Assembly: GCF_026625885.1 (NCBI RefSeq)
Contig: NZ_CP113068.1
Coordinates: forward strand, 4,588,001-4,652,000
DNA length: 64,000 nucleotides
Origin: Roseateles sp. SL47
Lineage (GTDB): Bacteria; Pseudomonadota; Gammaproteobacteria; Burkholderiales; Burkholderiaceae_C
Reading direction: 5' to 3'
Shown here: positions 37,155-51,944 of the stretch, piece after piece
Layout: every line of letters starts with the position of its first letter
Numbering within the stretch: position 1 is the first letter of the stretch
Translations under genes and position numbers: made by a program
The notes under the pieces: generated by a model
What the model saw: only the letters and a program-made list of their open reading frames with translations
What the model was told of the DNA's origin: nothing
Databases searched by the model: none

Positions 37155-39496
<2,342 letters not shown>

Positions 39497-40174
39497 ATGA
39501 AACGAAACGCTTTTCCCCGTTCCCTGAAGGCCGAGGCATCCCGGCAAAAGGGCTACTCGCTGATCGAACTCTCGATTGCGCTGGCCATCATCTCCGTCGT
39601 CATCGTCGGCTCCCTGGTGGGGGTGCAACGCATCCTGGCCAACAACCGTGCCAACAACCTGCTGGCGGAAATTCCGCGCATCAATGCGGCATTGGTGGGC
39701 GCAGCGGTCAACAGCGGCGACTTCAGCCAGATCAACACCTTGCGGGCGGCCGCGCTGGGGGCGTTCTCGCCCACCACGGTCAAGTGGGATGCTTCCAACA
39801 CGAAGGTTGACGTCAGCAACGCCTTCGGCGGCAAGTTGTACATCCAGGGCAGCACGGCCAATTTTGATGGTGTCGATGGTGAAGACCGCGGCTACATCGT
39901 GGTGGCCACCGGCATCCCGAACGACATGTGCGCCACCGTGGTGAATGGTCTGGCCCCGCTGGCTCAAGTCATGTGGGTGACACCTGGCACCGCGAGCACC
40001 GGGTCAGGCTCGGGCGCAAGCACCAACTACGACACTCCGACGAACAACGCCAATCCAGGTGGCTTGGTCAAGGGTCCGTTGGCCAACGCCAGTGTTGACC
40101 TGACGAAACTGGCCGAAGAATGCCGCTCGGGCACGAGCAGCTCGCGCGAGATCCACGCCTTCGTCGCCATCTAA
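39497..40174 (+). CDS. pilS: Type IVb major pilin (PilS-like)
   Basis: The protein has 225 residues. The prepilin leader MKRNAFPRSLKAEASRQKG is cut before Tyr: KG|YSLIELSIALAIISVVIVG, with Glu5. Tyr at mature position 1, the 19-residue leader and a large C-terminal domain with one Cys pair (in NDMCATVV and EECRSG) match type IVb pilins such as PilS of plasmid R64. A Ser/Gly/Asn-rich loop (ASTGSGSGASTNYDTPTNNANPG) lies in the D-region, probably exposed on the filament. A ribosome site TAGGA precedes ATG 39497. It is the first gene of the operon and is followed by a hairpin that may lower downstream transcription, as expected for a major subunit. Confidence 0.85.
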   Translation: MKRNAFPRSLKAEASRQKGYSLIELSIALAIISVVIVGSLVGVQRILANNRANNLLAEIPRINAALVGAAVNSGDFSQINTLRAAALGAFSPTTVKWDASNTKVDVSNAFGGKLYIQGSTANFDGVDGEDRGYIVVATGIPNDMCATVVNGLAPLAQVMWVTPGTASTGSGSGASTNYDTPTNNANPGGLVKGPLANASVDLTKLAEECRSGTSSSREIHAFVAI

Positions 40175-40186
40175 GCCCCACCCAAT

Positions 40187-40228
40187 GCCCGGGCCCGCAT
40201 TGCGCGGCTCGGGCCTTGTTCCGTCTTT
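40187..40228 (+). terminator. Hairpin/attenuator between pilin and pilus-assembly genes
   Basis: GCCCGGGCC pairs with GGCTCGGGC (one G-U), with an inner CGC-ATT-GCG stem, followed by CTTGTTCCGTCTTT. It sits 13 bp after the pilin stop. A partial terminator here would give high pilin mRNA and lower expression of the assembly genes, a common pattern for major pilins. Confidence 0.6.
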
Positions 40229-40251
40229 AACGGCTTCCTCTACGGCTCGTC

Positions 40252-40815
40252 ATGAAAACACTCAGGCTGCTTCCGCTGTTCGTCCTGGGCCTGGTGGCCG
40301 GTGCCCAGGCCACAGCTGCGTCGCCCCCAACGGGCGCCTCACGCGCCGCCATGTCGTCTCCACCCACCGCGCCCGATCCCACGGCCAAAGTTTCGCGCCC
40401 CCCCATCTCCCCCCCTCCATCGGGCGGCGAGGTGTCCGGCTATGGTGAAGTCGAATGGGTCCGCACGCCCCGGGCTCAACCGCTGCCTGCACGCCCCGAG
40501 GGTGCCGATCAGGACAGCGTCCTGGCGAGCATGAGAGGCGAAGCCTCCTCTGAATGGACCGTGGAACTGTCCGACCACAGCTTCCGCCAGACCCTGCTGC
40601 GCTGGACCCGCATCGCCAACTGGCAACTGGTGTGGGAGGTGGATCGCGACTTCGCCATCGACGCGCAGGTCACCCTGAACGGCAACTTTCTGCAGGCCCT
40701 GGACCAGGCCATGACTTCACTGCGGGATACCGACTATCCGGTGCAAGCCCGCGTCAATCCTGACACCCGCGTGGTACGCGTGGTGCGCTACATGCTCGAC
40801 GGAGAACGGCGTTGA
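40252..40815 (+). CDS. TcpQ/PilL-like secretin-associated periplasmic protein
   Basis: The protein has 187 residues. A signal peptide (MKTLRLLPLFVLGLVAGAQATA) leads a Pro-rich spacer (about residues 25-95). The C-terminal TcpQ-type domain reads WTVELSDHSFRQTLLRWTRIANWQLVWEVDRDFAIDAQVTLNGNFLQALDQAM, close to the C-terminal domain of PilL in R64/PAPI-1 pili and TcpQ of the toxin-coregulated pilus. Such proteins bind and stabilise the secretin. It overlaps the secretin gene by TTGA, so the two products are made together. Confidence 0.8.
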   Translation: MKTLRLLPLFVLGLVAGAQATAASPPTGASRAAMSSPPTAPDPTAKVSRPPISPPPSGGEVSGYGEVEWVRTPRAQPLPARPEGADQDSVLASMRGEASSEWTVELSDHSFRQTLLRWTRIANWQLVWEVDRDFAIDAQVTLNGNFLQALDQAMTSLRDTDYPVQARVNPDTRVVRVVRYMLDGERR

Positions 40816-42566
40816 TCCGACCCCAACACACTGCCACAGCAGCCCCCCGAGTCCCTGCCATCATCCCGCGCGCCCTGGCCGGTGGGCCCGGGCGTCTGGC
40901 GCTGGCCCTGGGCTGCGTCCTTGCTTCGGGATGTGCGGTGCAGTCCGCCCACGTGGCCCAGCGAGACTACAGCAGCAACAAAGACCGTGCCGGCCAGTTC
41001 CAGGCGCAGGCACGTGAAGCTCAGCGCCTCCCCCCCATGGTGCAGGCCGACACCGTGCCCCGTTTCGCGCGGCACTCCATTCCCTTGCAACGCGCCGCCA
41101 CCTTACCCACCCACATCGGGCAGGTGACGCTGCGTTATCCCGGGCGTCACCCGCTGCCTACGGTGGCAGAGCTGATTTCCCGGTTGATTGACATTCCGGT
41201 CATCATGACGCCGGACGCGCTTTCAAACGCGGCGGACTACGCGCCCGGCGGCCTGGTGACCGCAGACGCCCCCTCCACCAGCGGCGCGACTTCCTCCCCA
41301 TCCCACCAGGCCATGGCCCAGCAGGCAGAGGCTGCCGGCGCGCTGGCCCTCGCCGTGCACCCCCGGGATCTGCAAAACACCCTGGAGCTGGACTATTCCG
41401 GCCCCTTGTCAGGCCTTTTGAATCAGGTGGCCACCCGGGCGGGTCTGCAGTGGGAATACAACGGCGGCAAGATCGTCTTCAGCCGCCTGGTCACCCGTTC
41501 CATCCTCGTCAAGGCCCTGCCCAACGGGCTCAAGACCAACGGCAGCTTCGACGTGTTCGGCGGCAGCAACAGCTCCGGTGCGGGTGGCGGCGCTGGCAGT
41601 TCCGGCGGATCCGGCAGCACGAGCAACGGCACCTTGACCATCGATTTCCAGACCGAAAGCGATTATTGGAGCGGTCTCAGGGAATCGCTCAAGGGCATGC
41701 TGTCTGCGCGCGCCAATTTGCAGGTGGACGCCCGGTCCGGCCTGGTCACCGTGACCGATGCCTTGAACAATGTCGAGCGGGTGGAAGCCTTCCTGCAAGA
41801 AGTCAACACCAGCCTGCTGCGCCAGGTGGTGCTGGAGGTGGAGGTGCTGCAGGTCAACCTCACCGACCAATTCAGCAATGGCATCAATTGGGAGGCCGTG
41901 CTCGGTAAGGTCAATGGCAACTCGCTGACCCTCACCAGCCCCCAAGGGCCCGGGGCGCTGTCGGGCAATACGCCCGGCTCCTTGTCCTTCCTGCTGGCCC
42001 CTTCCGCGTCGCGGCAATCCGCCAGCAAGCTGGTGGCCGACTCGCTGCAGGAATATGGCAAGGTGTCCACCGCGTATTCCAGCGTGGTCACCACCACCAA
42101 CCGCATGCCGGTGCCGGTGGGATCTTTGCAGACGCAGTCCTACGTTCGCCAGAGTACGGCGGCGGTCGTGAATGGCACCACCGGCGCCTCCACCGGGGGG
42201 TCGCTGGTACCCGGCTCGATCTCGACTGGCCTGGGTCTGATGATTCTCCCGGTCATCCTCGACTCCAACCGCGTGCTGCTGCAGACCGCCATGCAGGTCA
42301 GTGAACTGCGAGAAATCAAGGCATTTACCAGCGGCAGTGGCGCGACCGCGCAGTCCATCCAGTTGCCCAACACGGTGAGCTTCTCGTCACTGCAACGCAT
42401 CAGCGTCCCGGCGGGCCAAACCCTGGTGCTGGTGGGCTACGAACGCGAACAGGCACAACTGGACGACACCGATGTCATCCGCGGTCTGCTGCCCATCTCC
42501 AGGCGCGGGGGTCGGACCAAGCAGGGCACTGTCATCCTGATCACGCCCCGTCTCACCGATCGCTGA
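40812..42566 (+). CDS. pilN: Type IVb pilus secretin PilN (lipoprotein)
   Basis: The protein has 584 residues. A lipoprotein signal ends at LGCVLASGC, so Cys is lipidated and the ring goes to the outer membrane. N-domains (IGQVTLRYPGRHPLPTVAELISRLIDIPVIMTP) and a Gly/Ser-rich linker (GGSNSSGAGGGAGSSGGSGS) precede the secretin core: QVVLEVEVLQVNLTDQFSNGINWEAVLG, LQTQSYVRQSTAAVVNG, and the C-terminal VPAGQTLVLVGYEREQAQLDDTDVIRGL. This matches PilN of R64-type thin pili. The start is TTG at 40812, with GGAGAA five bases upstream, overlapping the previous stop (TTGA). Confidence 0.9.
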   Translation: MIRPQHTATAAPRVPAIIPRALAGGPGRLALALGCVLASGCAVQSAHVAQRDYSSNKDRAGQFQAQAREAQRLPPMVQADTVPRFARHSIPLQRAATLPTHIGQVTLRYPGRHPLPTVAELISRLIDIPVIMTPDALSNAADYAPGGLVTADAPSTSGATSSPSHQAMAQQAEAAGALALAVHPRDLQNTLELDYSGPLSGLLNQVATRAGLQWEYNGGKIVFSRLVTRSILVKALPNGLKTNGSFDVFGGSNSSGAGGGAGSSGGSGSTSNGTLTIDFQTESDYWSGLRESLKGMLSARANLQVDARSGLVTVTDALNNVERVEAFLQEVNTSLLRQVVLEVEVLQVNLTDQFSNGINWEAVLGKVNGNSLTLTSPQGPGALSGNTPGSLSFLLAPSASRQSASKLVADSLQEYGKVSTAYSSVVTTTNRMPVPVGSLQTQSYVRQSTAAVVNGTTGASTGGSLVPGSISTGLGLMILPVILDSNRVLLQTAMQVSELREIKAFTSGSGATAQSIQLPNTVSFSSLQRISVPAGQTLVLVGYEREQAQLDDTDVIRGLLPISRRGGRTKQGTVILITPRLTDR

Positions 42567-42579
42567 AGGGGAAGTTGTC

Positions 42580-44028
42580 ATGTCATCCATCCCTGGTTCC
42601 GGCTCCGCTGGCGCCTTCGGCCCCGGTGGCGGCCTCGACTTCTCCAGTGGCGACGCCTCGGGAGGCGCTCCCAACGCCGTGGCCAAAAGCTGCGTCATTG
42701 CGGGCACCCGTGTGATCTTTGAGCTGGAGTGGAGCCCCATCCAGGATCGGAGCGCGCCAGAAGCGGAATTCCAACGTGCCCGCAAGCTGGGTTACACCTT
42801 TGCCACGATGCTCCCGGACAAGAGCCTGGTGGGGCTGGCGCGTGGCTTGCAGCCGGGCCCTGGCCGCCCACATGCCGCCGTGGTCATGCTGATCGAACGC
42901 TTCTCCTCCGGTGGGGCAGAAGCCATCCTGCTCTCCGCCGGCAACCGGGTGGCGTTCATCGGTCTGATGGACCGTCGCCCGGTGCCGGGCTTTGACCGGC
43001 TGGTCAACGGGCTGGAAGCCGCCCTGGCCTTGCTCAAGGAGTTTCGGGACATTCACATCGACCAGGATGTGCGGGTGGCCACCGACCTGCGTGATGTGAT
43101 TCCCAACGGGGAAATGCTGCAGGTGCAAACCATCTTCGACATGCCAGAAAGCGGTTCGCTGGTACGTCCGTTGGTCAATCGCACGCTGCGTCGAACCGTT
43201 GTGGCGGGAGGACTCACCGCGCTACTGGTGGGATCGTCACTGGGCTACTTCCTCTGGGAGCAACACCAGACCCGGAAGGCCGCCGAGGAAGCAGCGCGGC
43301 TGGCTGCAGAAAACGATCCGAACCGGCTCTATGAAAAGGCCATTGCGCACATGCTGGCTCAGGCGGGCGTCCCCGGCAATGCGGTGCTGGACCGCTGGCG
43401 CACCTTGCTGAACCGCCTCCCGCTCAGCCGCGAAGGGTGGGCGTTGCAGCGCTTTCAATGCAGTCAGAACACGCGCGACTGCCAGGCCACCTGGAGCCGA
43501 AACTTCGGCAATTTCCACGACTTTCTCACCGAGCCCCCCACCGACAGTCGCTTTCCAAGGGTCACTCCCACCCCCAACAACGACCTGCTGGGTGCCGCCA
43601 TCACCACCCACCATCCCTGGGATGAACCAGAGCTGGACGGTCATGCAGCGGCTTCGTCATCAGCAGCGGCTTCCGCACCGCCAGCCGCACGCTTGGCCAC
43701 CTTGTCGCGGCGGGCCTTGCCGCTGGCCGATACGGCGACGCAGCAATGGGGAAGCCGATTGCAGGATGTGGCGCTGGTGGCGGGCAATGCCCAGGCCACC
43801 TCGCTCAAACCTTCCCGGCTCTTTGGCCCCTCCACAGTCACCGACTTGCAGGCGCTGAAGCAGCCCGTCGTCCAACTCGAGTGGCAGGTGACGGATGGTC
43901 TGTGGTCCCTGCCCTCGATCGACCTGCCGCCCTCGGCTGTTCCTGAATCGCTGACGGTGCAACTCAACGCCAGCCAGATCACCTACACCCTTACCGGACG
44001 CGTTTATGCAAAAGGCAAACTTTATTGA
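42580..44028 (+). CDS. pilO: Type IVb pilus accessory protein PilO2
   Basis: The protein has 482 residues. A cytosolic N-terminal half (actin-like/PilM-PilL type fold suggested by AVVMLIERFSSGGAEAILLSAGNRVAFIGLMDRRPVPGFDRL) is followed by one transmembrane helix (VVAGGLTALLVGSSLGYFLW, about residues 207-226). A periplasmic C-terminal domain follows, with an Ala/Ser-rich patch and VVQLEWQVTDGLWSLPS. This is the layout of PilO2-family proteins that couple the cytosolic ATPase to periplasmic parts in conjugation-type pili. ATG 42580 follows GAAGGGGAAG. It overlaps pilP by 23 bp. Confidence 0.83.
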   Translation: MSSIPGSGSAGAFGPGGGLDFSSGDASGGAPNAVAKSCVIAGTRVIFELEWSPIQDRSAPEAEFQRARKLGYTFATMLPDKSLVGLARGLQPGPGRPHAAVVMLIERFSSGGAEAILLSAGNRVAFIGLMDRRPVPGFDRLVNGLEAALALLKEFRDIHIDQDVRVATDLRDVIPNGEMLQVQTIFDMPESGSLVRPLVNRTLRRTVVAGGLTALLVGSSLGYFLWEQHQTRKAAEEAARLAAENDPNRLYEKAIAHMLAQAGVPGNAVLDRWRTLLNRLPLSREGWALQRFQCSQNTRDCQATWSRNFGNFHDFLTEPPTDSRFPRVTPTPNNDLLGAAITTHHPWDEPELDGHAAASSSAAASAPPAARLATLSRRALPLADTATQQWGSRLQDVALVAGNAQATSLKPSRLFGPSTVTDLQALKQPVVQLEWQVTDGLWSLPSIDLPPSAVPESLTVQLNASQITYTLTGRVYAKGKLY

Positions 44029-44848
44029 AATTCCGCATGGCCAGCCTTCGTTTCACGCCCACGTGGGCTGCGGCAACGGTGGCATGAGTGGCAGCAGGAG
44101 TCGCCGTACGGACGGCCGCATCACCCATGCCGCGCCTCGCGGCGCGATCGCCAGCCTGCTGGGCAGGCGCCGGGTGTGCAGCGTCGCCTCTTTCGCCGTC
44201 GCCGCCTCTTTCACAGTCGCCGCCTCGTTCGCCGTCTCTGTAGCCGCCGTCACCCCCGCCTGGGCCGCCGAGGATGACCACAGTGCAGCCGCATCGTCCA
44301 TGCAACAGATCATCGAGGCCGCACGGCGCAAAAAGGCGCAAGAGTTGGACACCGCCGCCCGCCGGCTGCTGGGCACGGACGCCATCCCCGCCGCGCCCAG
44401 CCCGGTGCCGCTCCCGCAGATGCCGCCCCCTTCGGCCCACGAATCCAAAACCGAAGAGATCCCACGGGTGTGGTCCCTCACCGGCGTGGGCCAACGGCTG
44501 GAAGCGGAGCTCTATTACCAAGGCCGCATCCACCGGGTGTCACTGTCGTCCGCCCCCTCGCCGCAAGTCGGCCCCTGGCGAGTACGGTCCATCACCCCCA
44601 CCGGTGTCACGGTCCAGCTCAACACCTCTGCACAGGGCAAGGGGCGGGCGCCTGCCTCCATGGTGCTCCCTCCCCCTGCCCGAGGCAGCACCCTCTCCGG
44701 CTACCCATTTCAACCAGGCGCCCCAGGGGCCGTTGGCGGGCCCTTGAGTCTTTCGCCGGGAAGTTCCGCCCTGCCGCCTTCCGCGTTCCGCGCCAGCCAA
44801 TTGCCGCTGGAGGCGCCCGTCGCCCTGGCATCCCAACAAGGGCGGTGA
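44006..44848 (+). CDS. pilP: Type IVb pilus biogenesis protein PilP
   Basis: The protein has up to 280 residues. A late hydrophobic segment (VASFAVAASFTVAASFAVSVAAVTPAWAA, about residues 52-80) is the export signal; the true start may therefore be the ATG at 44087 rather than 44006. The conserved PilP part reads IIEAARRKKAQELDTAARRLL, then EIPRVWSLTGVGQRLEAELYYQGRIHRVSLSS, WRVRSITPTGVTVQLNT, a compact beta domain. The tail is Pro/Gly/Ser-rich. PilP acts in the periplasm with PilO2 and the secretin. ATG 44006 overlaps pilO by 23 bp; pilQ starts 1 bp after its stop. Confidence 0.78.
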   Translation: MQKANFIEIPHGQPSFHAHVGCGNGGMSGSRSRRTDGRITHAAPRGAIASLLGRRRVCSVASFAVAASFTVAASFAVSVAAVTPAWAAEDDHSAAASSMQQIIEAARRKKAQELDTAARRLLGTDAIPAAPSPVPLPQMPPPSAHESKTEEIPRVWSLTGVGQRLEAELYYQGRIHRVSLSSAPSPQVGPWRVRSITPTGVTVQLNTSAQGKGRAPASMVLPPPARGSTLSGYPFQPGAPGAVGGPLSLSPGSSALPPSAFRASQLPLEAPVALASQQGR

Positions 44849-44849
44849 C

Positions 44850-46751
44850 ATGACAACGCCGGTGTCCGATTCGGATGCACTTCCGCGGGCAGTACCGCTG
44901 GTGCCGCAAGTCCCGCGCGTACCGCAAGTGCCGCACGTACCGCGCGGAGACTCAGCTCCTGCTCCGCCTGCCACCGCAAGCGCACCACCATCCGACGTCC
45001 CGACCGCCACGGCCGCCGCATCCATTGGCGCGGCCGGCAGCGCATTGCCTGCGGCAGGCCCGTCCCGCCACATCACCGACTACGCCCAGTTGCCGCCTTA
45101 CGACCGGGTGCTGTCGGTGGTGTCTGACAACGTCATGGCCGGCAGGGAGGAGCGCCAGGTGCGCGTCTCCCGCGACAAGGAAAGCCGCCTGATGGCACTG
45201 GCCCTGCCCGCCCAGCGCTTTCTTGTGCTCTCCACTGAAGAGGAACTCCGCAGCCCGGACTGGTACCACGTGGTGCAGGCCGGCAAGCGGCTCGGTTTCG
45301 AATTCACCGGCTTCTACACCGCCCCGCCGGAGATCTTCGAGCTGATTTCCTACCGCACCCAGCGGCGGGACGTCGGTGGCGAGACCGAGAGCGAAAGCGC
45401 CCGGGCCATCGAGACCATGGTGGCCAACTCATCGCCGCTGGAGTGGTTTCGCACCATCGTCCACCGCTGCGTGATTGCCGGCGCAAGTGATCTGCACCTG
45501 GAACTGCGCGGGGATATCGGCCGGGCGCGGGTTCGGCTGGACGGCCTGATGCGCACCCTCGGCAGCTTCCCGGCCCGTATCGTGATGGATGGCATCTCTG
45601 CCGCCTACACCGTGCTGGCCGAGGAAAACTCTCGCAGCGAAGTGGCCTTCAACGGCGGCGTTCCGCAGGGTGCCATGATCCCGCTGGACCTGCCGGACAT
45701 GCGGCTGACCCTGCGTTATCAGAGCCATCCGGCCGTTGGTGGCATGGACGTGGTGATGCGCATCCTGCGCTCCAACAATGCCGCCCATCTGCAGCAACTG
45801 ACCCTGGACCGTCTGGGTTACACCCCCTGGCAGGTGGAGCGACTGCATGACGCCCTGAGTTCCTCCTGGGGCGGGATCTTCGTTGCCGGCATCACCGGCT
45901 CCGGCAAGACCACCACGCTCAACACCATGCTGGCCTACCTGGCTCGCGAAGGCACACGCAAGCTGATCACCATCGAAGACCCGGTGGAGTACGAGTTGGC
46001 CGGCGCATCCCATCTCTCCATCCAGCGGGGTTCGCTGATGCCAGAAGCCGGTGCCAACCCCTTCCACGGCGCCATGCTGTCCTTTCTGCGCATGGACCCG
46101 GACGTGGGCCTGTTCGGCGAGATCCGCGATTCGCTGTCCGCCAACATGGCCCAGGTCGCCATCCAGACCGGGCACAAAATCCTCTCGACCGTGCATGCGA
46201 CCTCTGCCCTGGGCGTGATCAGCCGCTTGAATTCCCACATCGTGGGCCTTCAGCGGGACGACCTCTGCAGCCCGGAGTTCATTTCCGCCTTGGTCTATCA
46301 GGTCCTGGTGCCCCTCAATTGTGAGCACTGCAAGGTGGCGGCCCGTGAGGTGATGTCGGCGGAAGCACTGGCGGTGTACCAGCAAGGTTTCGGGATCGCG
46401 CCCGACCAGATTTTTTGCGCCAGCGACACCGGCTGCCCGCACTGCCGCAAACCGCTCATCGACTACAGCACCGGCCAACGCAACGGTACCCGCGGCATGA
46501 AGGTGGGTGCAGAGGTCATCGTGCCCGACCTGCGCTTGCTGGAACTGCTGCACCAACGGCGAGACCTTGACGCCAAGCGCTACTGGCGCAGCCGGCAGGT
46601 GACTCCCTTTACCGACCCCGACATGGACGGCAAGGAAGCCTGGGGGCATGTGCTCTATGACATTTCTCAAGGCCGCGTCGATCCCTTCTATTTCGAACGA
46701 ACCTTTGGCCGGGCATCCCTACTGGCCAAGTCCTTGCTCCAAGATCATTGA
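44850..46751 (+). CDS. pilQ: Type IVb pilus assembly ATPase PilQ (GspE family)
   Basis: The protein has 633 residues. The GspE/VirB11-type ATPase has Walker [12 protein letters not shown] at residues 347-354, an Asp box (TIEDPVEYELAGASHLSIQ), Walker B (MRMDPDVGLFGEIRD) and a His box (GHKILSTVHATSALG). A C-terminal zinc-type Cys cluster is present (CEHCKVAARE and CPHCRKP). The first 75 residues are Pro/Val/Ala-rich with a repeated VPQVPRVPQVPHVPR stretch of low complexity. The protein powers pilin assembly. This PilQ (R64 naming) is not the secretin PilQ of type IVa pili. It overlaps or abuts pilR. Confidence 0.9.
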   Translation: MTTPVSDSDALPRAVPLVPQVPRVPQVPHVPRGDSAPAPPATASAPPSDVPTATAAASIGAAGSALPAAGPSRHITDYAQLPPYDRVLSVVSDNVMAGREERQVRVSRDKESRLMALALPAQRFLVLSTEEELRSPDWYHVVQAGKRLGFEFTGFYTAPPEIFELISYRTQRRDVGGETESESARAIETMVANSSPLEWFRTIVHRCVIAGASDLHLELRGDIGRARVRLDGLMRTLGSFPARIVMDGISAAYTVLAEENSRSEVAFNGGVPQGAMIPLDLPDMRLTLRYQSHPAVGGMDVVMRILRSNNAAHLQQLTLDRLGYTPWQVERLHDALSSSWGGIFVAGITGSGKTTTLNTMLAYLAREGTRKLITIEDPVEYELAGASHLSIQRGSLMPEAGANPFHGAMLSFLRMDPDVGLFGEIRDSLSANMAQVAIQTGHKILSTVHATSALGVISRLNSHIVGLQRDDLCSPEFISALVYQVLVPLNCEHCKVAAREVMSAEALAVYQQGFGIAPDQIFCASDTGCPHCRKPLIDYSTGQRNGTRGMKVGAEVIVPDLRLLELLHQRRDLDAKRYWRSRQVTPFTDPDMDGKEAWGHVLYDISQGRVDPFYFERTFGRASLLAKSLLQDH

Positions 46752-46759
46752 TCGCCTCC

Positions 46760-47842
46760 ATGCAGATACTCGACTGGATCCTCTTCCACACGGCAGCTCG
46801 CCGCCTGAAGCAACGGCGCGCCGACTTCTATTACGACCTGGCGAGCGCACTGGAAGACAAGGTGCCTCTGTTCACCATCCTGCGCAAATACGAAGCGCGC
46901 AGCCGCGGCCGCTCGCGGGGGGACGCCCTGCTTTTCCGGCACATGCTGCGTGAGGCCATGGGCGGTTCGCTGTCGCAGGCCTTGATCGGTGTGGTGCCCA
47001 CGACGGAGCTGATCCTCATCGATGCCATCCAGGGCAGCGGAGACGCCGGCTTGTCACGGGGCTTGTACTTCCTCTCCGAAACGGTGGAGAAGGTCGACCG
47101 CATGTTCCGCACGGTCCGCAAGGCGGTGGTGTACCCCATCATCCTGATGGTCTTGTTTGCAGGCCTGTTGACGGGCTTCTCGCTATTTGCCGTGCCCATC
47201 CTGGCGGACCTGCTCCCGCCGGAGCGATGGCCAGCGCTGGGCAAGGTGCTGTATGCAGTTTCCTACGCCGTGAGTCACTACGGCATCCTGATGGCGCTGG
47301 CGCTCGTGGCCGGCCTGGTGGCGTTCGCACTCTCACTCTCCCGTTGGCAGGGGCATGTGCGGCGACGGCTGGACAAATGGGCCCCCTACAGTCTTTACCG
47401 GGACTTCGCAGGGGCCATGTTGATCGTCTCAATCTCCTCACTGATGCGCGCCGGGGTGTCCTTGCGCTCCTCGTTGGAACGGGCCGCGCGCTTCAGTTCC
47501 CCCTGGATGCGCTGGCACCTGCGCGAGATCCTGGCCCGCTTGTCGTCAGAGCAGTCCACCCAGTTCGGTCAGGCCTTCTCCACCGGTGTGCTGAACGGCT
47601 CGCTGGAAGACCGCGTACAGGATGCATCGGAACGACGGGACCCGATTGCGGCCTTCGTCAAGATTGGTGTGGGCTCGATCGACCGCATTGAGCGCAGCAT
47701 TCAGGAATCCGCCAGCCGCATGAATACCACGCTGATGGCCATGGCTGGCATTACGCTGGCCGGCATGATGGCCGGCTTTTTTGCCACCGCGTTCGAGATG
47801 CAGACCGGCATCCAGGCCCCGCCCACGGTGCAGTCACCATGA
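46760..47842 (+). CDS. pilR: Inner-membrane platform protein PilR (GspF family)
   Basis: The protein has about 360 residues. It has the GspF/PilC double-domain layout: AMGGSLSQALIGVVPTTELILIDAIQGSGDAGLSRGL, then three transmembrane helices (VYPIILMVLFAGLLTGFSLFAVP, about residues 122-145; YGILMALALVAGLVAFALSLS; and MNTTLMAMAGITLAGMMAGFFATAF near the C-terminus). It forms the platform on which PilQ drives pilin extraction. ATG 46760 is used. A TTG at 46748 would overlap the pilQ stop (TTGA) and add four residues; neither has a strong ribosome site. Confidence 0.87.
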   Translation: MQILDWILFHTAARRLKQRRADFYYDLASALEDKVPLFTILRKYEARSRGRSRGDALLFRHMLREAMGGSLSQALIGVVPTTELILIDAIQGSGDAGLSRGLYFLSETVEKVDRMFRTVRKAVVYPIILMVLFAGLLTGFSLFAVPILADLLPPERWPALGKVLYAVSYAVSHYGILMALALVAGLVAFALSLSRWQGHVRRRLDKWAPYSLYRDFAGAMLIVSISSLMRAGVSLRSSLERAARFSSPWMRWHLREILARLSSEQSTQFGQAFSTGVLNGSLEDRVQDASERRDPIAAFVKIGVGSIDRIERSIQESASRMNTTLMAMAGITLAGMMAGFFATAFEMQTGIQAPPTVQSP

Positions 47843-48624
47843 AGGCCCGTCGACACGGCCAGGTGCGGGTCACTCTGCGAGGGGCAGCGCAGGTCATGAC
47901 CCGCCGGCGGACTGCGCGCTTGCCCTGGCTGATCAACGTGCTGTTCACCGGCATGGGAACACTGGCATCCCAAGGGGTGATGGCGGCCCCTGAGACGCTC
48001 GTTGCGCGCTGGCCCTTGGCGACAACAGGGGCAACAGGGGTGACAGGCGCGACAGGGGCAACAGGAACGGCCGGAACGGCCGGAGCGACTGGGGTGGCCC
48101 GGCACGCACGTCCCTCAGGAACGCCCCAGACCGCCCGGGCTGCTGGCCGTTCCAGAACGGGCCCCACGCCAGGCACCTTGGTGTCCTCCCATCCCCCGGC
48201 TGCCCTGATCACCCCCACCATGTCCCACTGCTTCGAGTGGGCCTCTCAACGCTACGGCATGTCCGCGCTGTTGCTCCAGGCCATTGCCCAGCAGGAATCC
48301 GGACTGAATCCCAAGGCCCTCAACCGGAATAGCAATGGCTCGACCGATGTGGGGCTGATGCAGATCAACACGAGCTGGCTACCCACCTTGGCCCGGCATG
48401 GCATCCGTCCTGCCGATCTCTGGGACCCTTGCACCAACATCATGGTGGGCGCCTGGATCCTCGGCAGCAATCTGGTGCGGATGGGCCCCACGGTGGCCGC
48501 CCTGGGGGCTTACAACGCCCGTGACCCGGTCAAACGGGAGCGTTATGCCCGTCAGGTGCTGCAACGCTTGGGCCGGTTTGACCCCTCGCTGCGCCCCCCC
48601 CCGCAGCCCCCCTACAGCCGTTGA
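47839..48624 (+). CDS. PilT-type lytic transglycosylase with collagen-like spacer
   Basis: The protein has 261 residues. An N-terminal hydrophobic segment (INVLFTGMGTLASQGVMAA) exports it. Residues 64-87 are eight perfect Gly-X-Thr/Ala triplets, a collagen-like spacer. A Pro/Thr-rich stretch follows, then an SLT domain (about residues 130-250) with catalytic Glu in IAQQESGLNPKALNRNSNG, VGLMQINTSWLPTL and LGAYNARDPVKRERYARQVLQRL. In R64 and PAPI-1 pili the PilT muramidase opens peptidoglycan for the pilus. It overlaps pilR by ATGA and leads into the HerA-like ATPase gene. This is not the PilT retraction ATPase. Confidence 0.87.
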   Translation: MKARRHGQVRVTLRGAAQVMTRRRTARLPWLINVLFTGMGTLASQGVMAAPETLVARWPLATTGATGVTGATGATGTAGTAGATGVARHARPSGTPQTARAAGRSRTGPTPGTLVSSHPPAALITPTMSHCFEWASQRYGMSALLLQAIAQQESGLNPKALNRNSNGSTDVGLMQINTSWLPTLARHGIRPADLWDPCTNIMVGAWILGSNLVRMGPTVAALGAYNARDPVKRERYARQVLQRLGRFDPSLRPPPQPPYSR

Positions 48625-48650
48625 ATTCCCTCCCTTCTGCTCACCACTCC

Positions 48651-50600
48651 ATGCTCATTCACGCTGAAGACTTGCGGTCCAGCCACTGGCTCGGGCCAGT
48701 CGTGACCTTGTGTCACGAGCACGTGCTGGTCATTGCCAATCGTTCCCATTGGGACTCCCAGGCGGCGTTATGCCGGGGCGCGTTCTGTTTCATGACTGAG
48801 AGCCTGCAGCGCAGCCTCCCACACACCGTGGACCACCCTCCCACGCCTGACAGCGTGCATGCCGACCGTCTGCTGCTGTTGCGGCTGCTGGATTTCCCGG
48901 CCTGGCCAGACCCTGGCACCGCCCAGCGCGACCGCATCCAGGCCCTGCTGAGCCTGCCTCCCTCGGCACAGGACCCGCAGAGCCAGGTGATGCTGATCCG
49001 CTTCTCACTCCTGGGCAGCTACCACCTGGAGCCCTCGGACGACCCCGCCGTGAAGCCCTCCCCACGCTTCTCCGGCGAGCCCGGGCACCTGTTGCACGCG
49101 GACCGTTACGGGGCCTTCGCCCCGACGCCGCGCATGCAGGATTTCCTGATCAACGGCACGGTCACGCCACGGCATCGCATCCGATTCGGGCTGCTGCGCC
49201 ATGACGAATCTCAGGTCTATCGAGACAACGGCGTCACGAGTTCCCTGTCAATGCTGGACATCCGGGGCCGCCGCACTGCCATGTTCGGCAAGACCCGGCT
49301 TGGCAAATCCAATGTGGTGAAGCTGCTGGTGCAGGGCATGCTGGACGTCACGGCACAGAAGCGGGACGTCGGCCAGCTCATCTTTGATGTCAACGGCGAA
49401 TATGCCAACAGCAACCCGCAGGATGGGGTCGCCAACATCGGCGCGGTGTATGCCGACCGCTGCACCTTGTATTACCTCTCCGAAGCCAAGGCGGGCAGCC
49501 CCAACAGCAAGCTGCTGCGCTTCAACTTCCATGAGCGGCCAGAAGACGCCCTGAGCACCTTGCGGGAGCTGCTGCCCGCCGAAGTGGCAGACACCGACTA
49601 TGTGCGCCCGCTGCTGTCCTGCCGACTGCCGACGCTGCGTTTTGCGCCCGAAGAGCCCCCGGAAGTTGTGCAGCGCCGGCTGCGCAAGCTGATGACCTAC
49701 TGGACCGTCCTGCACCATGCAGGCTTTGAACATGATGAAGCGCGGCTGTCCGGGGTGCTCGCGTCCCTGGGTTACTCCCACCCGTTCACGCCAGGCTTTA
49801 ATCAGCAACTGCGCCTGTCGGCCTATCAGGCGGTGAACGGCACCACCGCGCCATCGCAGCCACGAACCTTCAATGAGATGGTGTCCGAGATCTCGCTCAT
49901 GCTGCGTTTCAGCCTGAGTTACCCCAACGATCCGGCCCTGCGTAAACAGGGCAGTTATCTCTTTGATTCGGACGAAGAGATCATGGCTCATTTCCTCTAT
50001 CCACACGCCGGCGCGGGCCCCTATGTACTGCGCCCGGCCACGCCGTTTCATTCGCCGCGCGTGGACAACTTCATCACCGAAGTCCTGGCCACCATCGACC
50101 AGGGCGGGACGGTGATCGTGGATCTGGGCAGCGCCAACGAACGCATCATTCGCTATTTTGCGAAGACCTTATCGGTCGCGGTGTTCCTGCAGCAGGAGGG
50201 CAAATTCGTGCGTAATGAAATGGACGGCCGTTATGTACAGATCTATTTCGAAGAAGCCCACATGATCTTCCCGCCCAATGCCGGCAACGTCATCGACGTG
50301 TATTCACGGTTTGCCAAGGAAGGCGCCAAGTTCAACATCGGCATCGTCTACTCGACGCAGTCACCGTCCACCATCAATCACGACCTGCTCGCCCAGACCG
50401 AGAACTTCTTCATCGGCCATCTGTCCAGCCAGCAGGAGGCTGCCATCCTCAGCACGGTGCAATATGCCTTCAAGGGCATGGAGCAGGACATCATGCGCAC
50501 TCGCACCCCGGGTTACATGCGCGCCCTCACCGCTTCGCACCGCTATCCGATCCCGGTCCAGGCCGCACGTTACGACGGCACGAGCCTGCTGATGGACTGA
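48651..50600 (+). CDS. HerA/VirB4-like P-loop ATPase at the end of the pilus operon
   Basis: The protein has about 650 residues. Residues ~1-190 form a poorly recognised N-terminal region. The ATPase core has Walker A G213-KTRLGKSN, LIFDVNGEYANSN (HerA-type motif after strand 2), a helical insertion (about residues 310-440), and Walker B YVQIYFEEAH with Glu534/Glu535. A sensor-like IVYSTQSPSTINHDLLAQTENFFIGHLSSQQEA follows. This is the DUF87/HerA-FtsK superfamily of ring ATPases that move DNA or protein. No such protein is part of the standard R64 pil set. It directly follows the muramidase; a TTG at 48621 would overlap that stop (TTGA). A role in DNA movement through or with the pilus is inference. 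Confidence 0.82.
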   Translation: MLIHAEDLRSSHWLGPVVTLCHEHVLVIANRSHWDSQAALCRGAFCFMTESLQRSLPHTVDHPPTPDSVHADRLLLLRLLDFPAWPDPGTAQRDRIQALLSLPPSAQDPQSQVMLIRFSLLGSYHLEPSDDPAVKPSPRFSGEPGHLLHADRYGAFAPTPRMQDFLINGTVTPRHRIRFGLLRHDESQVYRDNGVTSSLSMLDIRGRRTAMFGKTRLGKSNVVKLLVQGMLDVTAQKRDVGQLIFDVNGEYANSNPQDGVANIGAVYADRCTLYYLSEAKAGSPNSKLLRFNFHERPEDALSTLRELLPAEVADTDYVRPLLSCRLPTLRFAPEEPPEVVQRRLRKLMTYWTVLHHAGFEHDEARLSGVLASLGYSHPFTPGFNQQLRLSAYQAVNGTTAPSQPRTFNEMVSEISLMLRFSLSYPNDPALRKQGSYLFDSDEEIMAHFLYPHAGAGPYVLRPATPFHSPRVDNFITEVLATIDQGGTVIVDLGSANERIIRYFAKTLSVAVFLQQEGKFVRNEMDGRYVQIYFEEAHMIFPPNAGNVIDVYSRFAKEGAKFNIGIVYSTQSPSTINHDLLAQTENFFIGHLSSQQEAAILSTVQYAFKGMEQDIMRTRTPGYMRALTASHRYPIPVQAARYDGTSLLMD

Positions 50601-50603
50601 GGC

Positions 50604-51944
50604 TCAGTCCCGCTGGCTGGCGGGGCCCCGGTCTTTGTCTTTGTCTTTCTCTTTCGGCGACTGCACCCGGGCGATCATCACCTGGTCCACCCGGTGGCTG
50701 TCCACGTCCACCACCTCAAAGCGCCAGCCTTCCCACTCCACCACATCGGTACGTTTGGGAATGCGGCGCAACATCACCATCAGGAAACCGGCCAGCGTGT
50801 CGTATTGGCCCGGATGCGGGAAGTCGTCCAGGCCCAGCGAGCGCTGCACATCAGGGATCGGTGTGATGCCATCAGCCAGGAAGCTGCCATCATCCCGACG
50901 GATGATCTGCTGTTCTTCCTCATCGGTATGCACCAGGCTGCCCATGACGGTGGACATCACATCATTCAGCGTGATCACCCCCACCACCAGGCTGTATTCG
51001 TTCACGATGACCGCAAAGTCCTCATGCGCCTGGCGGAACTGGGTCAGCACCTCCGCCAGCGTCAGCCGATCAGGCACGATCAGCACCTTCTTGACCAGCG
51101 CCGGCTCCGCCCGCAGGCTGATGACCTCACCAAGCAGCACCCGCTGGAACAGGTCGGTGGCGTCCACATAACCGACCACCTGGTCGATGTCGTGCTCACA
51201 GACCAGATAGGTGGAGTGCGGGGAGTCCGCAATCCGCGTTCGCACCAGTGCCTCGTCATCGTCCAGCGCAAAGTAGACGATCCGCTCGCGGGAGGTCATG
51301 GCCGACTCCACCGTGCGGGTGTCCAGCTCAAAGATGTTTTCGATGACCTGCTGTTCCGCATCCGCCACCACACCCGCCTGATGCCCGGCTTCCGCCAGTG
51401 CCAGGATGTCCGCATGGGTGATGGTGTTGTCCGGCTTCATCGGGCGGCCCAGCAGGCGGAGCAAGACATCCGTCAACGCATTCAGGGCCCAGGCCACTGG
51501 CCGCAGCACCAGCGTCAGGAACAGCATGGGGCCGACCAGCACCATCGCCACCCGCTCCGGCTCGTTCATCGACAGGCGCTTGGGCAGCAGGTCGGCGAGC
51601 ACCACGAACATCATGGTGACGCAGCCAAAGGACAAGGCGAACGCCAGCCGCTGGGCGTTGTTGATCTCCATCCAAGGCCCCAGCACGGTTTCAAAGTGCG
51701 GCGTTAATGCACCTTCCCCCACCACACCGGCCAGGATGGCCAGCGTATTCACACCGATCTGCACCACGGTGAAGTAGTAGCCCGGATGTTCCTGGACCTT
51801 CAGCACCTGCCCCGCCCGGGCATCGCCCTCATCGGCCAGTTGTCGCAGCCGCAAACGGCGCGACGCAGCCAGGGACAACTCCGCCATCGAAAAAAAGGCG
51901 CTGGCGGCAATCAGCACGAAGATCAACAGGAGGCTGGAACTCAA
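50604..51944 (-). CDS. CorC/HlyC-type CNNM membrane protein with CBS pair
   Basis: The protein has 446 residues. The N-terminal DUF21/CNNM domain (about residues 1-190) has four hydrophobic segments: LLLIFVLIAASAFFSMAELSLAASR, TVVQIGVNTLAILAGVVGEG, LAFALSFGCVTMMFVVLADLLPKRLSM, and MLFLTLVLRPVAWALNAL. A CBS pair (about residues 210-335, MTSRERIVYFALDDDEALVRTRI and FAVIVNEYSLVVGVITLNDVMSTVMG) and a C-terminal CorC_HlyC domain (DDFPHPGQYDTLAGFLMVMLRRIPKRTDVVEWEGWRFEVVDVDSHRVDQVMIARV) follow. The family is linked to Mg/Co ion transport or its control. It converges on the pilus operon with only 3 bp between stops, and lies 84 bp downstream of sixA. Confidence 0.93.
   Translation of the reverse strand: MSSSLLLIFVLIAASAFFSMAELSLAASRRLRLRQLADEGDARAGQVLKVQEHPGYYFTVVQIGVNTLAILAGVVGEGALTPHFETVLGPWMEINNAQRLAFALSFGCVTMMFVVLADLLPKRLSMNEPERVAMVLVGPMLFLTLVLRPVAWALNALTDVLLRLLGRPMKPDNTITHADILALAEAGHQAGVVADAEQQVIENIFELDTRTVESAMTSRERIVYFALDDDEALVRTRIADSPHSTYLVCEHDIDQVVGYVDATDLFQRVLLGEVISLRAEPALVKKVLIVPDRLTLAEVLTQFRQAHEDFAVIVNEYSLVVGVITLNDVMSTVMGSLVHTDEEEQQIIRRDDGSFLADGITPIPDVQRSLGLDDFPHPGQYDTLAGFLMVMLRRIPKRTDVVEWEGWRFEVVDVDSHRVDQVMIARVQSPKEKDKDKDRGPASQRD

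Follow-up and report, generated by a model that had tools for sequence, protein, structure and literature searches.

What is a HerA-type ATPase doing in a pilus operon? The question is raised by the chromosome of Roseateles sp. SL47, in a stretch of 64,000 nucleotides (hereafter, the window; bases 4588001-4652000 of a one-contig, 6.39-Mb genome, with positions given in window numbering and C1 denoting the genome contig), where nine plus-strand genes extend from the ATG of a pilin gene at 39497 to the end of the herA stop codon at 50600. The original prediction, made from this DNA alone, had claimed nine tightly spaced pilus and ATPase genes with an unusual ATPase at the end, and all these claims stood: the genes are present at exactly these limits, their names are backed by profile matches, and, past a 77-bp gap between the pilin gene and tcpQ, the intergenic gaps are -4, 13, -23, 1, -4, -4 and -4 bp. 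The terminal ATPase is an intact HerA that recurs together with pilus genes in 18 other genomes or bins (16 loci, G315 and G500). Judged by its gene content, the operon is a type IVb pilus of the R64 or bundle-forming pilus (BFP) kind, chromosomal and with a complete-looking gene set. Given the long linkage of HerA with this pilus across a change of gene order, its intact motor core, the lack of a nuclease-like neighbor and a changed N-terminal domain, we favor, at a probability of roughly 0.4, the reading that a chromosomal type IVb pilus has recruited a built-in HerA-type DNA translocase that would act at cell contact.

Linkage of HerA with the pilus genes

The scan that yielded most of the outer loci used HerA as its query, with 80 of 84 kept; in the 15 clade genomes found via PilN rather than HerA, HerA lies beside the pilus in 10. 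In the family, sampled with 299 genomes, four score above 790 bits for PilN of this clade, including that of Roseateles sp. SL47 itself, the next best match being 284 bits, and the pilus-type HerA scores above 1000 bits in the same four genomes, on the same strand and 5.5-6.1 kb downstream of PilN. Strong matches to the pilus-type HerA were located 5.5-6.2 kb from PilN in 4 of 4 family-sample genomes and in 7 of 7 genus genomes; two weaker HerA matches in the family (218 and 145 bits) had no pilus match in the 16-kb stretches around them. Among 399 genomes of the order, G500 has a PilN (506 bits) and also a HerA that is 48.5% identical, in the order herA, three pilins, tcpQ, pilN, pilO, pilP, pilQ, pilR, pilV, a small open reading frame (ORF), pilT and a peptidase gene. 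The exact nine-gene order described in the original prediction is not constant among relatives: herA comes first in G500 and is missing from one genus group. No HerA was found, tblastn included, in the examined stretches of G425 (382 bits), of the more distant G114, G367 and G411, or of the second pilus clusters of the Roseateles sp. SL47 genome and G324. The clade boundary, with G500 in and G425 out, was set by us, and the tree joins G500 to the clade with support of 100/100.

The HerA tree and the tree of PilN, PilQ and PilR (compared without the HerA-less rows, L012 and L141) have 14 of 16 splits in common, with r of 0.894 and none of 2000 permutations as good. Because the two trees are congruent, HerA is not incidental to the operon: it belongs to this pilus clade and, as far as the trees of the proteins indicate, has been inherited together with the pilus over a long time.

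The herA gene of the window (48621-50600, plus strand) encodes a HerA-type (DUF87) ATPase (PF01935, 1.3e-9), for which relatives point to a Met 30 bp further in as the possible true start. The motor motifs are intact (Walker A GKTRLGKSN, Walker B YFEEAH), and the structure model (predicted local distance difference test, pLDDT, 88) has an FtsK/HerA fold, with TdpA (PDB 8wet/8wfd) as the nearest solved structure. A nuclease-like gene adjoins HerA in 48 of 63 non-pilus loci versus 0 of the 17 pilus loci, two of which (L010 and L013) stop 132 and 429 bp past herA; of the 48 nuclease-like matches, 38 have only 21-30% identity to the query, which is the protein of L023. In alignment A4, from which L005, L022, L026 and L028 were excluded, the motor core of the pilus HerA is conserved as much as in nuclease-linked HerA, whereas the N-terminal domain is not.

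The partner of the non-pilus HerA is labeled “NurA-like” from its position and a DGS motif, and is presumably a nuclease. The partner in L023 matched no model of Pfam (E 0.01), PADLOC (0.1) or NCBIfam (1), those in L027 and L029 matched only an unrelated model at E 0.15-0.2, and no PDB chain was found below E 0.6 for the NurA-like partner proteins. Relocation of this partner was considered as well: a search of 16 genus genomes with profile A6 gave a single match, in G318, beside that genome's other, non-pilus HerA, and none in the Roseateles sp. SL47 genome, so that a relocated partner was rejected for these genomes. A set of D12 adenine methylase, HerA and NurA-like genes recurs in diverse bacteria (L018-L026, L028 and L029), with the NurA-like gene seen in 9 of the 11; in L025 and L028, the contig or locus is too short or the NurA-like gene is unmatched. 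The methylase is missing from an archaeal bin (L027) in which HerA and the NurA-like gene are both present.

Pilus operons without HerA

Five genus members have this pilus without HerA (G316, G319, G320, G321 and G323; PilN 670-705 bits). Their draft genomes comprise 2 to 190 contigs each and are 96-100% complete. HerA has not moved elsewhere, with no match to profile A2 at E 1e-10 in any of the five genomes, and a contig gap does not account for its absence in four of the five, where pilT abuts corC inside one contig; the fifth contig (L141) ends inside pilO. Four HerA-less operons occupy the same ligA/corC site, gene for gene, L140, a short contig, being seen beside corC only. The four HerA-less rows form one clade (support 100), sister to the HerA-bearing genus members (93; 94/95) and nested within HerA-bearing loci, which suggests one loss from a HerA-bearing ancestor. 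As HerA was the query by which most outer loci were detected, the idea of an ancestral HerA lost once depends on few members found via PilN; long branches meet in this tree, and the odd letter make-up of the HerA-less rows may inflate their branch. L012 (a fragment) and L141 (truncated) were excluded from one pilus tree, L005, L012 and L141 from the tree with G500, and L025, L028 and L031-L081 from a further sequence comparison.

The pilus proteins of the HerA-less group have diverged to different extents. Relative to the distance between the two HerA-bearing groups, their distances are 1.70 for PilN, 1.62 for PilR, 1.61 for PilO and 1.50 for the pilin, then 1.39 for TcpQ, 1.34 for PilP, 1.28 for PilQ and 1.01 for PilT, where the distances are simple ones, the pilin and PilP are near saturation and the HerA-less rows have the same odd make-up. 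The housekeeping ratios in these genomes are as expected (LigA 1.05, CorC 1.08). Because most of the pilus ratios are raised while those of LigA and CorC are not, the loss of HerA is accompanied by a changed constraint on the channel, platform and fiber, be it as cause or as effect.

Operon content, PilV and mobility

The first gene of the operon (39497-40174) and all that follow it are on the plus strand. It encodes a major type IVb pilin of 225 aa with the cleavage site RQKG/YSLIEL (PF07963, 3.8e-7 in a longer frame); the profile of this pilin (A5) matches BfpA (1.3e-7), TcpA (3.3e-4) and PilS (0.0022), and Cys 145 and Cys 209 are invariant among 11 aligned sequences. Next are a TcpQ/PilL-like secretin partner (40252-40815; PF10671, 2.7e-21) and the lipoprotein secretin PilN (40812-42566; TIGR02520, 1.2e-74, 251.7 bits, below the cut-off of 287.65), the profile of which matches BfpB (E 5.5e-63) and in which Cys41 is invariant in 11 aligned sequences (alignment A1). 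PilO of the PAP_PilO type (42580-44028; PF06864, 5.3e-6, 26.0 bits versus a cut-off of 26.7) has one hydrophobic segment by hydropathy, and is followed by a PilP-like protein (44006-44848; TIGR03021, 2.9e-5, 25.1 bits versus a cut-off of 34.65). PilQ (44850-46751) is a GspE/PilB-type extension ATPase (PF00437, T2SSE, 1.6e-59), for which PilF and BfpD are the closest solved structures by sequence, PilR (46748-47842) is a GspF-type inner-membrane platform protein (PF00482, T2SSF, 2e-7), and PilT (47839-48624) is a lytic transglycosylase (SLT; PF01464, 3.5e-20) rather than a retraction ATPase; by profile matches, no PilT-type retraction ATPase is encoded among the operon genes. Together, the matches of the pilin, TcpQ, PilN, the extension ATPase and the platform bear out the R64-like type IVb gene set of the original prediction. 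The operon is flanked by the minus-strand genes ligA (37155-39257) and a CorC/hemolysin-type gene (50604-51944), the names CorC, LigA and PurL having been assigned by eye from translations. Within 37155-63930, the pilus operon and genes for CorC-like and SixA-like proteins and a large hybrid sensor kinase separate ligA from Smc-like and ZipA-like genes (identified by eye).

The original prediction also held that the operon lacks the peptidase PilU and the adhesin PilV. As to the peptidase, this was borne out: a single A24 prepilin peptidase protein was matched in the genome, at C1:105308-106066, and a peptidase of the same type adjoins the operon in Limnohabitans (L009) and in G500. The absence of PilV is valid for the operon but not for the genome. 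A search with the PilV-like proteins of relatives identified a 603-aa PilV-like protein at C1:3908746-3910554, some 717 kb away from the operon and at a conserved site common to HerA-bearing and HerA-less genomes, beside or one gene from a luciferase-like (LLM-type) monooxygenase gene. A protein with a prepilin-like N-terminus is encoded between pilR and herA in L009-L011, L013-L017 and L030, and a PilV-like gene follows herA in L007 and L008, the latter with two; no such gene lies within the window operon or those of L002-L006. With the 603-aa protein as the query, 15 of 16 operon-bearing genomes gave a match at E 0.001, away from the operon in L002-L006 and at the operon in the other ten; L030 had no match, yet has a PilV-like ORF in its operon. 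PilN is present in 12 of 16 genus genomes, 11 of which also have the PilV match (E 1e-10), whereas the match is missing from all 4 that lack PilN; these counts are not corrected for relatedness. The seven strong PilV matches (E below 1e-27) are from the seven HerA-bearing genomes and the four weak ones (1e-14 to 1e-16) from HerA-less genomes.

The PilV-like protein is not an R64 Shufflon_N protein by Pfam, as Shufflon_N gave no match, and its profile matched the genome's second, Shufflon_N-type PilV over the first 60 columns only (E 1.1e-4, probability 57). A PDB search returned only pilin N-termini (E at least 0.0012) and phage tip protein J, and the predicted structure is of low quality (pLDDT 55); given these results, the name rests on operon position in relatives, the N-terminus and co-occurrence. 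Columns ~309-392 of profile A3 are weakly similar to the phage tip attachment protein J (E 0.043-0.44). PilV-type proteins differ at their C-termini: those of L011 and L013 contain collagen-like repeats, and that of L015 has a discoidin-like domain (PF22633, below the cut-off). G315 has two tandem genes of the remote PilV type (L129:7103-11738). The second, HerA-less type IVb pilus cluster of the Roseateles sp. SL47 genome (C1:1750456-1761233; L092:7457-18234) has its own Shufflon_N PilV and SLT genes and lies beside genes that by eye resemble a type III secretion system (L093); G324 has a cluster of the same kind (L142).

Relaxase and integrase genes, absent according to the original prediction, were indeed not recognized by eye among the gene calls of the window and its 60-kb flank, and the one relaxase family searched for, PF03432, had 0 matches in the whole genome (among 14 control genomes, only Lactococcus matched). 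In a set of 72,556 plasmid records, this HerA has 5 matches, each covering less than 80% of the protein, and PilN has 2813, all at below 60% identity, the best-ranked at 29.7%. The G500 cluster is flanked on either side by a copy of tRNA-Leu(CAG) (145 bp, 96.6%; L147:13-157 and L143:19335-19478). Transposase remnants and RHS-like genes, recognized by eye, share the 30.3 kb between the two copies with the cluster, so that it is possibly an old genomic island, which hints at past mobility. Scans of the other pilus loci revealed no tRNA.

Possible role of HerA and comparison with known systems

If HerA acts as a DNA translocase of the pilus, PilD would process the pilins, PilQ and PilR would build the fiber through the PilN secretin, the transglycosylase would open the cell wall, and PilV on the fiber would bind a surface or a partner cell. 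The HerA ring would dock, via its changed N-terminal domain, on the cytoplasmic side of the machine and thread double-stranded DNA, most likely for export or uptake at cell contact without a relaxase or a type IV secretion system. HerA would add a function to the pilus rather than build it, given that one species group keeps the pilus without HerA.

Several observations weigh against this reading. HerA is dispensable for the retention of the operon, not being found in 5 of the 12 genus genomes with this PilN, and lacks any hydrophobic segment. The solved structures closest to it are HerA proteins (TdpA and SIR2- or DUF4297-HerA complexes), mostly titled as defense complexes. It is not clear from the tree that the HerA of G500 groups with that of the other pilus loci, and hence, a single recruitment does not follow. 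In L031, HerA is in pieces (L031:10001-11569), by eye a decayed pilus type, and no pilus gene was matched in this 21.5-kb locus. Type IVb pili are known as adhesins and mating-pair stabilizers that leave DNA transport to a separate type IV secretion system, and none is known to pass DNA itself. In the case of TP114, the pilus is reported to stabilize mating pairs and the type IV secretion system to perform the transfer (PMC9045228).

Among the alternatives, HerA could guard the pilus, as a defense motor acting with a hypothetical nuclease partner on the DNA of phages or plasmids that use the pilus as a receptor or route. Although we consider this unlikely, several of the nearest structures are titled anti-phage, the nearest sequence relatives belong to methylase-HerA-nuclease-like sets, and the pilin and PilV are most divergent where HerA has been lost. 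However, no nuclease was recognized in the operon, nor any NurA-like match in the genome, the N-terminal domain of HerA is changed, and the congruence of the HerA and pilus trees is unlike what is seen with defense genes, which are fast-moving. A somewhat less likely possibility is that HerA has turned into a mechanical component of the pilus, serving as an additional motor or in assembly or retraction and no longer acting on DNA, which would fit the linkage, the lack of a retraction ATPase in the operon, and the larger distances of the secretin, platform, PilO and pilin that go with HerA loss (1.5-1.7, against 1.05-1.08 for LigA and CorC). Nevertheless, the FtsK/HerA fold and a motor core conserved as in HerA with a nuclease-like neighbor speak against this, the pilus genes persist without HerA, and PilQ, the would-be partner motor, has a ratio of only 1.28.

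The original prediction had raised the possibility of a domesticated conjugative pilus with a new role; in a fuller form of this view, the chromosome would have retained the pilus for a purpose such as adhesion, and HerA would be incidental. The R64-type gene set and the possible old island in G500, with its near-identical tRNA-Leu copies and transposase remnants, agree with such a history, and a conjugative ancestor is possible; however, with no close member among the plasmid records and no PF03432 relaxase in the genome, domestication is not supported, and the congruent trees contradict an incidental HerA, which makes this view as a whole improbable. Least probable of all, HerA might be an operon neighbor with a separate DNA-repair or chromosomal role, linked by co-expression only. 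That HerA can go while the pilus genes stay, and that L031 resembles a remnant of the pilus type without pilus genes, would be expected in this case, but not its position 5.5-6.2 kb from PilN in the family-sample and genus genomes or a linkage that holds despite the different gene order in G500.

If the DNA translocase reading is correct, this pilus clade, which would have kept a DNA motor of its own over deep divergence, would allow a direct test of how a pilus machine handles DNA away from mobile elements, with the species in which the motor was lost but the pilus retained as a natural comparison group. It would also illustrate the re-use of a motor that is elsewhere found next to a nuclease-like gene. 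According to Denise et al. 2019, type IVb pili had previously been described only in Gammaproteobacteria, with Acidithiobacillia and Nitrospirae added there (PMC6668835), from which we infer that the betaproteobacterial clade is little studied. The literature searched, which mostly did not extend to subscription papers, contained no report of HerA in a type IVb pilus operon.

With the thin pilus of R64 and TP114 (IncI) and with the bundle-forming and toxin-coregulated pili, the operon has in common the pilin type, TcpQ/PilL, the lipoprotein secretin, PilQ, PilR, the PilT muramidase and, as putative members, PilO, PilP and a PilV-type minor pilin. Unlike in these systems, HerA is present, the operon has no peptidase gene, the PilV-like gene is remote, and the locus is chromosomal, with no conjugation genes recognized. 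TdpA and other HerA motors have been solved together with TdpB, NurA, SIR2 or DUF4297, whereas the HerA of the window has no adjacent nuclease-like gene, has a diverged N-terminal domain, and is the product of a pilus operon. TdtA of Thermus thermophilus ICEth1, likened here by description rather than by sequence, is another FtsK/HerA-superfamily ATPase, acting in transjugation, and its operon encodes a NurA-family nuclease and a methylase, as in the non-pilus kin of HerA found here; it differs in residing on an integrative element outside a pilus operon and in keeping the nuclease. TdtA shows that an ATPase of this kind is able to power the donation of chromosomal DNA (PMC5365140). The Ups/Ced system of the Sulfolobales likewise combines a pilus with HerA-like ATPases, there for chromosomal DNA exchange between archaea; CedD serves DNA import and, unlike the HerA of the window, combines a membrane segment with a VirB4-like N-terminal domain (PMC11868833). 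That the Roseateles operon could be a bacterial counterpart of Ups/Ced, in which a PilV-tipped type IVb pilus would join cells and a HerA drawn from a methylase/nuclease-like set would pump double-stranded DNA in a chromosomally encoded, relaxase-free exchange at cell contact, is a doubtful extension of the DNA translocase reading.

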